In this document: positions 2,434 through 28,096 of the stretch, piece by piece
How positions within the stretch are numbered: the first letter of the stretch is position 1
Layout: every line of letters starts with the position of its first letter
Source: Halorubrum sp. CSM-61
GTDB taxonomy: Archaea > Halobacteriota > Halobacteria > Halobacteriales > Haloferacaceae
Assembly (NCBI RefSeq): GCF_003781945.1
Contig: NZ_RJJW01000013.1
Coordinates: forward strand, 1-64,000
Length of the DNA: 64,000 nt
Reading direction: 5' to 3'
Position numbers and translations under genes: made by a program
Notes under the pieces: model-generated
What the model saw: only the letters and a program-made list of their open reading frames with translations
Databases searched by the model: none
Told to the model about the DNA's origin: nothing

Positions 2434-2580
2434 TCACTCCTCGGCGGAGTTCCGGAACGGGGCGGCGAGCCGCCGGCCGTACGTGGCCGAAACGGCGCCG
2501 AGGACGAACGAGACGACCGCGGCGACCGCGATCCACAGGGTGTTCGGGTGTTCGAGTCCGGAGTGTAGCAGGATCTCCAT
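2434..2580 (-). CDS. Microprotein of the GLEHP type (paralogue of 27841-27996)
   Basis: This is a 48-residue protein beginning MEILLHSGLEHPN, followed by one hydrophobic helix (LWIAVAAVVSFVLGAVSA) and a basic then acidic tail ending NSAEE. A TATA-like CTTCTTAATCC lies about 27 nt before the ATG, supporting a leaderless transcript. Its N-terminus matches the microprotein upstream of cooS (MLDIVLHTGLEHPD), including the GLEHP box placed just before the helix, which argues strongly that both are real genes. Function unknown; probably a single-pass inner-membrane protein. Confidence 0.75.
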   Translation of the reverse strand: MEILLHSGLEHPNTLWIAVAAVVSFVLGAVSATYGRRLAAPFRNSAEE

Positions 2581-2763
2581 GTCCTTCGGTTCGCGCTGTC
2601 CGGATTAAGAAGTTCGCTTCGGCGGCGACGCCGTTTCGGTGGCGGTGTTCGCACTCCGTCGAGGTCCCAGCGGGCTCCGACGTTCGGCCGGATAACACCG
2701 ATGTCAGCGGGTGGCCCGGCGGTCCCTTTCGCTTTTATACGTGTTCGACTCGTTGGCAGTGGT

Positions 2764-24610: not shown

Positions 24611-24946
24611 ATGATCGACCTCGGGCCGGTCTACCTCGCGGTCGCGGGAGCGCTGCTGCTCGTCGCGCTGGGGTTGGGGTTCCGCGTGCTCCGCGGAATC
24701 GTCCGCGACGGGCGTGACCGGCAGCGCCGTCGGCGGGCCGGGGAGATAGAGAAGTACACGGAAGACGAGGAGTTCGGAGGAGAACCGCCGGCGGACTCCA
24801 GGGACGATCGCGGGGAGGAACGGGAGCGGGGCGAATCGGACGGCTCGAACGATCCGGCCGCGACGTGCCCTCACTGCGGGGCGGACAACGAGCCGGGCTT
24901 CAGCTACTGCCGCCGATGCGCGGCGCCGCTCCCTCCCGGCGCCTAG
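24611..24946 (+). CDS. Membrane-anchored zinc-ribbon protein
   Basis: The 111-residue protein has one N-terminal TM helix (VYLAVAGALLLVALGLGFRVL), a basic then acidic linker, and a C-terminal zinc ribbon ATCPHCGADNEPGFSYCRRCAAPLP. This topology places the ribbon in the cytoplasm. Its end is convergent with, and overlaps by a few nt, the cooC gene. Function unknown. Confidence 0.75.
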   Translation: MIDLGPVYLAVAGALLLVALGLGFRVLRGIVRDGRDRQRRRRAGEIEKYTEDEEFGGEPPADSRDDRGEERERGESDGSNDPAATCPHCGADNEPGFSYCRRCAAPLPPGA

Positions 24947-25887
24947 TTCGCGGGTTTCGCCCCTCCCTCAGCCTCGTCGTGGTCGCCCGATGTCGTCCGA
25001 AACGCGCCGACGACCTCGGTGGCGGCGTCACGTAGGCGCGCGCTCGCTCGAACCGGGGAGTCGCCGCCGAGTCCGGCGGCCGCGATCTCCTCGTCGTACG
25101 GTAGCGTCGCGATCACCGGTACGTCGAGCTTGTCGGCGACCGTCTCGGCGTTCCCTCGCGTCTTGTTGACGACCGCTCTGACCGTGTCGACGCCGAGATC
25201 GGCCGCGAGTTCCGTGATGCGCTCGGCCGTGTCGATCGAGGTTCGAGACGGTTCGACGACGACGACGAACGCGTCCACCGCCTCGGCGGTACCGCGCCCG
25301 AGATGTTCGATCCCGGCGGGCATGTCCATCACCACGTACTCTTCGGCGAGCGCACTCGACACGAGCGATCGCACGAAACTGTTCTCGGGACACATGCAAC
25401 CGGTGTTCCCCGCGGCCGGCGCTCCGATCGTCAGCAGCCGCCCTTCCGGTCCGAACTCCGCCGAGTGCGTCTCCAGTACGTCTTTCACGTCCGGTGTCAG
25501 CCGAATGAGACCACCACCGGTTCCCGCCCGATCCTCGATGAGATCGCGTTCGTCCGTCACCGGACTCGGCTCCTCGACGCCCAGCGATGTCGCGAGGTTC
25601 ATGTCCGGGTCGGCGTCGATGGCCGTGGTTTCGTGCCCGTTAGCCAGCCGTTGGGCGACTGCGGCCGCCACCGTCGATTTTCCGACGCCGCCTTTCCCCG
25701 TGATCGCGATCCGAACCGTTCCGTCCGTGTCGACGGTCGCATCCGGCTCGGTGACTCGGCCGTCATGGTCTTTTCGGTGGTCGTGACCGTGAGTATGCTC
25801 GTGGTCTTCTCGGTGGTCCTGACCGTGGCTACCGTTCGATCCGTCGTGGCTGTTCCCGTCTCCGTGGCGTCCGCACGCGTCGCACAT
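24943..25887 (-). CDS. cooC: CooC-type ATPase (Ni insertion into CO dehydrogenase) with His-rich N-terminus
   Basis: The 314-residue P-loop ATPase has the deviant Walker A GKGGVGKST (about residue 64), the metal-binding GCMCPEN motif diagnostic for CooC, and VVMDMPAGIEHLGRGT. Residues 1-45 hold roughly ten histidines and two cysteines (MCDACGRHGDG, DHEHTHGHDHRKDH), resembling the nickel-storing tail of CooJ or HypB. Such a domain fused to CooC would combine nickel storage and insertion; the fusion role is inference. It starts 6 nt after the cooS stop. Confidence 0.9.
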   Translation of the reverse strand: MCDACGRHGDGNSHDGSNGSHGQDHREDHEHTHGHDHRKDHDGRVTEPDATVDTDGTVRIAITGKGGVGKSTVAAAVAQRLANGHETTAIDADPDMNLATSLGVEEPSPVTDERDLIEDRAGTGGGLIRLTPDVKDVLETHSAEFGPEGRLLTIGAPAAGNTGCMCPENSFVRSLVSSALAEEYVVMDMPAGIEHLGRGTAEAVDAFVVVVEPSRTSIDTAERITELAADLGVDTVRAVVNKTRGNAETVADKLDVPVIATLPYDEEIAAAGLGGDSPVRASARLRDAATEVVGAFRTTSGDHDEAEGGAKPAN

Positions 25888-25893
25888 GGCGGA

Positions 25894-27774
25894 TCAGGCC
25901 TCCTCGAACAGGGCCGTCCGGCGGTCGTCGAGCGCGCTCGCGATAGCGTCGGCGGCCGCCTTCGGGTCCTCCTCTTGGATCGCGAACCCTCCGGTGATGT
26001 CTTTTAAATCCTCGGTCATGATCCGCGTGACTTCCTCGCTGTGGTCCATGTGGAGCGTGGGTGCGGTGTGCAGCGGTAACCCCAGCGCGAGCGCCCACGT
26101 GCCGATGCTGACCGCCTTTTCGGCGATAAGCTCTGGAGCGCTCGCGACGACCGGGAGTTCCCGGGTCGGCACTCCGGCGTCTTCCGAGATCGCGCGGACG
26201 ACGTTCCCGATCCGGGAGTTGTCGACGCACGATCCCATGTGCCAGACCGGCGGCAGCGGTCCGTCGAGTCCGGCCGCTTCGCCAAGGTCGTTCAGGACCG
26301 CCGCCAGTCCGTCGCCCGCGAGTTCGTCGGTCATCGCCGGATCGAGATACCCGTTCTGGGCCGTAATGTGGCCGATACAACCGGTCACCACCGGAAGCAC
26401 GTTCTCGGCGAGCAGCTCCTCGATCAGGATCTCGGTCATGTCCGCGGTGCGCATCTTGGGGTTCGGACAACCGACGATCCCCACGATTCCGTTGAGGTCA
26501 CCGGCCTCCATCGCGTCGACGAGCGGGCGCGACGGGTTCTCGGGATTCGCCGACTCGAGCACGTTCAACACGAAATCGTCCGAGACCCCGACCATCGCGT
26601 CCGTCGTCCGGTCCGGAATCTCGACGGTGTAGTCCTGTCGGCTGTGGCGGTCGCCGAACGCCGCGATGCCCCGACGGACGATCTCCTCTGCGTCCTCCGC
26701 CGCGGTCTCCGGATCGAAGGAGACGTGTTCGGCTCCCGGGATCCGGACGTAGTCGACGGTCGTGATGAGCCGCGTGTGATGACACTCGACGACGTCGCCG
26801 ATCCCCGGCCAGATACACTGGATGTCCGCGACCATCGCGTCGAGCGCCCCCGTCGTGACCGCGAGTTCCGCCTGACTGCTGTGGGCGGCCAACGGTACCT
26901 TCTGTCGCTCGGCCAGCTCGTTGCCCGTACAGCAGATCCCCACGATGTTGATCCCGTCTGCGCCGGCCTCGATCGCCTCGTCTTCAAGCTCGTTCGCGTG
27001 CTTGACCACCATCTCGCTGAGGACCGGTGAGTGGCCGTGGACGGCGATGTTGACGGCGTCCTCTCTCAACGTCCCGAGGTCGGCCTCCGTCTGGACCGGC
27101 TGTGGCGTTCCGAACACGACGTCCTGCAGGTCGGTTCCCATCGTCAGCCCGGCGTATCCGTCGGTGAGACCCGCCTCGACCGCACCGGTCAAGAGGTGTT
27201 TCGGGTCCGCGTCGTTCCCCTGTGTCGTCCGATGCATGGCCCGCGCGACCTCCTTGTCCGCGCTCGGGAGCGGCTCGATCCCCTGCTTGGCGAGGTACTC
27301 GCGCTGCTCGTCCGGCATCCGGTCGAGCCAATTCAGCGTCTCTCCACCCTCCTGAAAGTCCTCGATCGCCGCCTCGGCGACCTGCTCGGCGACCGCGCTG
27401 ACGTCCCCCTCCGCGTCGAGACCGAGATCCGCCGCGATCGTCCGAAGCTTCTCGGGGTCGGCGATGTCGTACGCCGACAGCTCGCCGTCGGCGATCTCCG
27501 CGAGTACCGTCGCGATCTCTCGGGCGTGATCCGCGTGGCTCGCCGCCCCGGACGCGATCTCCCGGTAGACGTTCCGTGCCGCTACGGTCCCCGGCGTCGC
27601 TCCGCAGACGCCGCGCTCCATGCCGTGTGCCCCGTCGCTGACGCGGCACGGGCCCATATAACAGATGCGACAACAGCTCCCACCGACGCCGAACGGGCAC
27701 TGCGGCTGGCTCTCTTCGAGGCGCTCCTCGGGCAGTTCTGGTGTCGTCGGTTCGTCGTCTTCGGATGTGGCCAT
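25894..27774 (-). CDS. cooS: Anaerobic (Ni-Fe-S) carbon monoxide dehydrogenase catalytic subunit
   Basis: The 626-residue CooS carries B/D-cluster cysteines in QCPFGVGGSCCRICYMGPCR and MERGVCGATPG. C-cluster residues are seen in VHGHSPVLSE (His), GICCTGNE, GIVGCPNPKM, VTGCIGHITAQNG and MGSCVDNSRIG. All usual ligand motifs look intact. It catalyses CO/CO2 interconversion; no CooF, hydrogenase or acetyl-CoA synthase genes are visible in the window, so the electron route is unknown. ATG 27774 is preferred to an upstream in-frame start. The operon order is microprotein - cooS - cooC. Confidence 0.95.
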   Translation of the reverse strand: MATSEDDEPTTPELPEERLEESQPQCPFGVGGSCCRICYMGPCRVSDGAHGMERGVCGATPGTVAARNVYREIASGAASHADHAREIATVLAEIADGELSAYDIADPEKLRTIAADLGLDAEGDVSAVAEQVAEAAIEDFQEGGETLNWLDRMPDEQREYLAKQGIEPLPSADKEVARAMHRTTQGNDADPKHLLTGAVEAGLTDGYAGLTMGTDLQDVVFGTPQPVQTEADLGTLREDAVNIAVHGHSPVLSEMVVKHANELEDEAIEAGADGINIVGICCTGNELAERQKVPLAAHSSQAELAVTTGALDAMVADIQCIWPGIGDVVECHHTRLITTVDYVRIPGAEHVSFDPETAAEDAEEIVRRGIAAFGDRHSRQDYTVEIPDRTTDAMVGVSDDFVLNVLESANPENPSRPLVDAMEAGDLNGIVGIVGCPNPKMRTADMTEILIEELLAENVLPVVTGCIGHITAQNGYLDPAMTDELAGDGLAAVLNDLGEAAGLDGPLPPVWHMGSCVDNSRIGNVVRAISEDAGVPTRELPVVASAPELIAEKAVSIGTWALALGLPLHTAPTLHMDHSEEVTRIMTEDLKDITGGFAIQEEDPKAAADAIASALDDRRTALFEEA

Positions 27775-27840: not shown

Positions 27841-27996
27841 TCAGCTGTCGTCGATCCCGTCGGTGACTCGCGCGCTCGTCTCGTTTCGGCCCGCCGATCC
27901 GATACCGACCCCCGCGAGGAAAGTCAACAGGCTCGGCACGACGATCCACCAAATATCCGGGTGTTCGAGGCCCGTGTGGAGTACAATATCGAGCAT
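27841..27996 (-). CDS. Microprotein of the GLEHP type upstream of cooS
   Basis: The 51-residue protein MLDIVLHTGLEHPD... has one hydrophobic helix (IWWIVVPSLLTFLAGVGIG) and a hydrophilic tail ending DGIDDS. It is 66 nt upstream of cooS on the same strand and so probably in its transcript. Its N-terminal half matches the microprotein at 2434-2580 at most positions, including GLEHP. AT-rich sequence at 28033-28060 provides a promoter. A single-pass membrane topology is predicted; function unknown. Confidence 0.75.
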   Translation of the reverse strand: MLDIVLHTGLEHPDIWWIVVPSLLTFLAGVGIGSAGRNETSARVTDGIDDS

Positions 27997-28096
27997 ACAC
28001 CGTTTGCTACGGCCTCGTTCGCAGAGAGACTAGTCCTTCATAATCGTCCGGTTTAAAACCGATTCCTCGCTCCCCTCGAGCTCGCGACTCGTCTGA

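Follow-up and report, generated by a model that had tools for sequence, protein, structure and literature searches.

A reading frame of 51 codons lies directly in front of the carbon monoxide dehydrogenase genes of Halorubrum sp. CSM-61, and a similar frame of 48 codons stands elsewhere on the same contig. Are these frames genes, is CO dehydrogenase their partner, and what might the encoded proteins do? The window analysed is a DNA stretch of 64,000 nucleotides (assembly GCF_003781945.1, contig NZ_RJJW01000013.1, positions 1 to 64,000 of the forward strand).

The two genes and their surroundings

24943–25887, minus strand: cooC-like ATPase with an N-terminal MCxxCG motif and His-rich extension (CbiA/ParA domains; weak NifH/MinD relatives; sequence).
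25894–27774, minus strand: cooS, catalytic subunit of Ni-dependent anaerobic CO dehydrogenase (TIGR01702, 590.4 bits, cut-off 478; Prismane/CODH, PF03063).
27841–27996, minus strand: microprotein gene, 51 aa (translation; family profile, E = 7.6e-22).
28052–28058, minus strand: TTTTAAA, probable TATA box of the microprotein–cooS–cooC unit (inspection).
2434–2580, minus strand: stand-alone gene of the second microprotein, 48 aa (translation; Halorubrum orthologues; conserved neighbours; dN/dS).
2604–2610, minus strand: AT-rich TATA-like box about 27 nt before the ATG of the second microprotein gene, a probable leaderless arrangement (inspection).

The minus-strand frame 27996–27841 is translated as MLDIVLHTGLEHPDIWWIVVPSLLTFLAGVGIGSAGRNETSARVTDGIDDS (51 aa) and the frame 2580–2434 as MEILLHSGLEHPNTLWIAVAAVVSFVLGAVSATYGRRLAAPFRNSAEE (48 aa). 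Translations of the plus strand at both sites are unrelated to the microproteins. In the 51-aa protein an HTGLEHP box at the N-terminus leads into a single membrane helix. Used as the query in a six-frame search of the 3.7-Mb genome, it retrieved itself and the 48-aa copy only (E = 5.7e-6, 41% identity). Similarity of this order is not due to chance. Two short genes with a common N-terminal pattern, as reported in the earlier note, are thus confirmed as true relatives, and the TATA box of its own that was ascribed to the lone copy is found as the AT-rich box about 27 nt upstream of the ATG.

Orthologues of the 48-aa copy, 79–92% identical, occur in nine other Halorubrum genomes. Its site is conserved in the genus, with a VOC (glyoxalase-fold) gene on one side and the gene of a 67–71 aa membrane protein on the other. 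The latter (2178–2391 of the window, plus strand) is convergent with the stand-alone microprotein gene in most Halorubrum carriers examined. On the family tree the stand-alone copy falls in a supported Halorubrum clade (97/91). The cooS-linked copy, at the end of a long branch, is unplaced and does not group as the sister of that clade. The two are thus distant relatives; recent duplication as their origin is ruled out by the tree, in which only the lone copy belongs to the Halorubrum clade.

The 51-aa gene is the first gene before cooS, whose start (27774) lies 66 nt past the microprotein stop. The cooC-like gene follows 6 nt downstream of cooS; on the other side, 100 nt upstream of the microprotein gene, is a DoxX-like gene. 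A single transcript of the microprotein gene with cooS–cooC is plausible. In the window cooC-like gene the MCxxCG motif and His-rich stretch (25722–25887, minus strand) precede the Walker A motif. Such an N-terminus is present in four of eight haloarchaeal CooC proteins (the window, G129, G317 and G359; loci L189, L194 and L195) and resembles the nickel-binding N-terminus of HypB.

Description of the family

Single-helix membrane proteins, 48–61 aa in length, present in about 120–130 of 391 haloarchaeal genomes. A search with a single query gave relatives in 126 genomes (36 of 86 genera); a profile built from 12 sequences gave matches in 145, the weakest being partly chance helix matches. Solid carriers were counted as 121 of 391. 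The collection, filtered on H.G..HP, comprises 136 ORFs, of which 116 are distinct. All 116 combine a length of 48–61 aa, the pair H-x4-H before a single helix and an Arg-rich segment after it; about a dozen profile matches with variant motifs stand beyond them. A GTDB-wide peptide scan of low sensitivity found carriers in Halorubrum, Halobellus, Natrinema, Haloterrigena, Natrialba, Natronorubrum, Halopiger and MAGs labelled Haloarculaceae or Halococcaceae, and none outside the haloarchaea except one MAG labelled only Euryarchaeota. Locus L122, from a Euryarchaeota MAG, holds a variant copy that has no recognisable start codon and comes after several cobalamin-biosynthesis-like genes in a row.

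The members agree in start position, length and stop across several haloarchaeal families, and the loss of the frame in relatives, which the earlier note had named as the outcome that would speak against it, did not occur. dN/dS is about 0.24–0.33 among the Halorubrum orthologues of the 48-aa copy. Pairwise pN/pS is 0.31 for stand-alone Natrinema copies and 0.44 for urease-linked copies. The frame is clearly under purifying selection, and these are real coding genes, as had been supposed. They are often missed by gene calls, as also predicted: the plasmid copies of Natrinema zhouii are unannotated in three of three cases, and the copies of N. versiforme and Halocatena are annotated as 'hypothetical protein'.

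Neither window microprotein matches Pfam or NCBIfam above cut-off. PDB searches by profile and by fold gave no meaningful remote homology. Literature searches of an open-access collection, from which most subscription papers are missing, returned no title or abstract on such a family. The profile also weakly matches a transmembrane segment of proteins of about 600 aa in many Halorubrum (E about 1e-3, positions 14–38); this was treated as generic helix similarity, and these proteins were not accepted as relatives.

Conserved core and predicted orientation

The conserved core is a histidine pair, H-x4-H, usually H-x-G-x-E-H-P, placed directly before the helix; the pair precedes the helix in all members. 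Within GLEHP, L varies freely and E occurs in 89 of 116 sequences; both histidines of the pair hardly vary. In the profile matches that fail H.G..HP the histidines are still five positions apart and proline is replaced by A, S, T or V; rare variants lack the glycine or the second histidine. A tryptophan stands no more than a few residues past the box in 106 of 116 sequences. GLEHP, which had been taken for the conserved box, gives way to the histidine pair as the family-wide constant part. The proposal of a binding site at the membrane boundary stands as regards position, the box lying at the mouth of the membrane helix, where a putative site would be suitably placed; it does not stand as regards the box itself, which is not GLEHP.

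Lysine and arginine are absent before the helix (0 of 116 sequences, mean 0.00). The 14 residues past the helix hold 2.63 on average (n = 116), and the segment is Arg-rich. Under the positive-inside rule, by which the positively charged flank lies inside the cell, this distribution places the N-terminus and the histidine pair outside and the C-terminus inside, an orientation predicted from sequence. The AF2 model has a short helix (2–11) and a long helix (13–43), with pLDDT 72 and pTM 0.41. As a prediction it is too simple to inform function.

Distribution of cooS

CooS is rare: a class-wide search found it in 8 of 391 haloarchaeal genomes, belonging to 5 genera. It occurs together with the microprotein in two of the eight, the window genome (G000) and G129, and in the latter the two genes are about 600 kb apart. 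They adjoin in the window genome only (one of eight); none of the remaining seven cooS loci has a microprotein gene upstream (0/7). Across the 391 genomes the presence of one is uncorrelated with that of the other. The association with cooS as such, and the co-occurrence expected from it, thus failed, and cooS as the general partner is rejected by its distribution and by the seven other loci.

Gene settings

The majority of copies are solitary genes that face a convergent gene downstream, with no nickel gene nearby. These stand-alone copies occupy conserved places in several genera; those of Natrinema adjoin bcp-like and pheA-like genes (named by eye). Microprotein copies have a promoter-like box about 27 nt upstream.

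A minority of copies lead an operon. The microprotein gene is first before urease in at least eight genomes on several branches of the tree (loci L049, L050, L092, L125, L103, L155, L081/L127 and L064; G351 by coordinates). It is followed by ureB, ureC, ureA, ureG, ureD, ureE and ureF (families verified), with 27–70 nt before ureB in several loci. A 568-aa neighbour at first suggested a terminal oxidase subunit; this candidate was rejected, the neighbour being UreC. The 'urease-linked' label needs at least five changes on the tree, two of them forced by supported branches. At locus L054 (genome G049) the microprotein gene lies 2 nt before the small subunit of a [NiFe]-hydrogenase, followed by the large subunit (both verified) and by cytochrome b, maturation protease and hyp genes (read by eye). 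Other operon-leading copies precede an MBL-fold hydrolase (L124, L126, L065) or unrelated genes.

About 16 loci have a same-strand gene within 100 nt downstream, and in a post hoc tally eight of these genes are nickel enzymes of three unrelated kinds. The pattern thus extends beyond cooS to urease, [NiFe]-hydrogenase and CooS operons, all of nickel enzymes. Genome-wide co-occurrence with urease is not significant (41 of 121 carriers vs 72 of 270 other genomes, p = 0.15), and most Halorubrum carriers have neither urease nor cooS.

An element like GGYMAATWTNGCC lies just upstream of the TATA region in urease-linked copies and in several stand-alone Natrinema copies (L073, L081, L092, L125, L144, L155, L165, L062, L111), with 0–2 exact matches per genome. 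None of its other genomic matches precedes a recognisable nickel gene; as evidence of a nickel regulon it was rejected on this ground.

Natrinema zhouii has four microprotein copies in all. On its plasmids 1 and 3 (L124:9001–10021 and L126:9001–10023; also L072) an unannotated copy lies 7–8 nt before an MBL-fold metallohydrolase gene.

Nickel transporters in urease genomes

Where a urease cluster lacks the microprotein, ureB often has a nickel transporter as its neighbour, either a UreH/NicO-type permease (L205, L208, L209) or NikMNQO/CbiMNQO with NikR (L210, L213). Of 80 genomes with urease, 41 have the microprotein, and 5 of these have NikM-type CbiM or UreH; of the 39 without the microprotein, 25 do (p = 2e-6). 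This exclusivity is largely a family (taxonomic) effect, Natrialbaceae lacking both transporters (0 of 25 genomes with the microprotein vs 1 of 10 without). Outside Natrialbaceae the transporters occur in 5 of 16 carriers vs 24 of 29 non-carriers (p = 0.001), and within family f3 in 1 of 7 vs 8 of 9 (p = 0.009). A transporter adjacent to urease (20 genomes) and an adjacent microprotein (12 genomes) coincide in none of the 80 (P = 0.023), where adjacency includes same-strand copies up to about 7 kb away and two copies assigned by inference despite contig breaks (G299, G164), and does not extend to G333, with a stand-alone copy 8 kb from a urease cluster with UreH.

No CbiM/NikM, UreH or NicO match was found in the window genome or in the hydrogenase genome. 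NikR is present in both and in all 80 tested genomes; its distribution is uninformative and was set aside as evidence. PF03824 missed a UreH homologue of G003 that was found by protein query, so absences drawn from PF03824 alone are weak. Both NikM-type CbiM and UreH are absent from 50 of the 80 genomes, 36 of which carry the microprotein. They are also absent from 14 of the 39 genomes without the microprotein, and other nickel uptake routes must thus exist.

Possible function

Some functional link of the family to nickel is rather probable. More specifically, and a little short of even probability, we propose an outward-facing microprotein that handles nickel and probably aids its uptake. Of the readings that take in the three nickel enzymes, the external histidine pair and the mutual exclusion with known nickel permeases, it is the simplest. 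The histidine pair, probably in an oligomer, would bind Ni(II) at the outer face of the membrane. The microprotein would serve as a subunit for capture or in an accessory role, making more nickel available to the enzyme encoded downstream, wherever a genome has neither NikMNQO nor UreH/NicO permeases. A single helix of 50 residues is unlikely to form a complete channel, and a partner transporter or homo-oligomerisation is assumed for this reason. Stand-alone copies might do the same from their own promoters, or might handle a related divalent metal. The weak points of a nickel role are the stand-alone majority, the lack of a genome-wide correlation with urease and the other operon partners. 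A fuller version is doubtful: that this is a previously undescribed, haloarchaea-specific family of outward-facing Ni-binding proteins of about 50 residues, which substitutes for, or forms the capture part of, an importer unrelated to NikMNQO, UreH and NicO, and which was recruited several times before urease, [NiFe]-hydrogenase and CODH operons.

If the family handles nickel, it would name a missing component of the nickel supply for urease in haloarchaea, above all in Natrialbaceae. A large set of small proteins that are now unannotated would also gain a role, and nickel-dependent metabolism in hypersaline systems a marker. Culturable strains carry urease operons on plasmids (Natrinema versiforme pNVE414; N. 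zhouii).

Unlikely, but the strongest of the alternatives, is a general accessory or regulatory microprotein for divalent metals (Co, Zn, Cu or Ni) that modulates a partner transporter, the nickel operons being one of several settings. It agrees with the two near-constant histidines and with the fact that most copies stand alone in genomes that have neither urease nor cooS. Archaea are known to have small proteins that modulate transporters, such as one of Methanosarcina mazei that inhibits ammonium transport (PMC10714827). Against it, half of the enzyme-operon settings are those of nickel enzymes of three unrelated kinds, and no gene for another metal recurs as operon partner.

Less likely still, the protein may have an unrelated function (respiratory or stress), its promoter-plus-gene unit having come to lie before operons by chance. 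The promoter-like box of its own, the GGYMAATWTNGCC-like element common to urease-linked and stand-alone Natrinema copies, and the occurrence of other downstream genes fit such hitchhiking. They are opposed by the pairing with urease on separate tree branches and by the presence in so short a list of three different nickel enzymes, which have few genes per genome; by a post hoc estimate this is unlikely to arise by chance.

A role as a subunit that assembles the downstream enzyme or anchors it to the membrane is distinctly improbable. Close spacing would suit it (2 nt before the hydrogenase small subunit, 27–70 nt before ureB in several loci, 66 nt before cooS), but the enzymes are unrelated in fold and location (hydrogenase is Tat-exported, urease and CooS are cytoplasmic), the predicted orientation turns the conserved box outward, and no such enzyme accompanies the stand-alone copies. 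That the ORFs are spurious and alike by chance, as very short ORFs in GC-rich DNA often are spurious, can be discounted almost entirely in view of the start, length, stop and motif conserved across several families, the Halorubrum dN/dS and the conserved synteny, which already contradict this reading.

Comparison with known systems

The nearest functional analogues of the proposed nickel-handling microprotein are CbtB, CbiN/NikN, and CooJ with CooT. Compared with the defining features of each, the family is filed under none.

CbtB has about 60 aa and one membrane helix followed by a membrane-edge histidine motif, pairs with CbtA and serves cobalt supply. The microprotein resembles it in size, single helix, membrane-edge histidine motif and proposed link to transition-metal supply, but its histidine pair precedes the helix, whereas the histidines of CbtB follow it. 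PF09489 (CbtB, the cobalt transporter subunit) gave no match at E ≤ 10 with either window protein. No cbtA-like gene was recognised, by eye, among the nearest neighbours of the microprotein loci.

CbiN/NikN is likewise a small membrane accessory protein in nickel supply, and its haloarchaeal versions also lie beside urease (L210, L213). Those CbiN-like proteins differ in having about 100 aa and in being encoded with CbiM, Q and O; no CbiM-type gene was found near the collected microprotein loci or in the window genome.

UreH/NicO/HoxN permeases share the place next to ureB (L205, L208, L209) and a His/acid motif near the N-terminus. They are multi-helix proteins of about 240–300 aa with an HAxxxDH motif, whereas the microprotein has 48–61 aa and one helix, and in the AF2 model one short and one long helix. 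Pfam and NCBIfam searches detected no sequence similarity between them.

CooJ and CooT are very small nickel-handling accessory proteins encoded in bacterial CODH operons, and they become important under nickel scarcity; in CooJ (12.6 kDa) the C-terminal domain is rich in histidine, while CooT binds nickel via Cys2 (PMC6006190). The likeness lies in very small size and in a place in cooS operons. The microprotein differs from them in its membrane helix and in that no more than two histidines are conserved, and co-occurrence with cooS, expected of such proteins, amounts to adjacency in one of eight cooS genomes.

Five genomes (G062, G064, G105, G274, G281) have two urease alpha genes in tandem, separated by 12 to about 600 bases.
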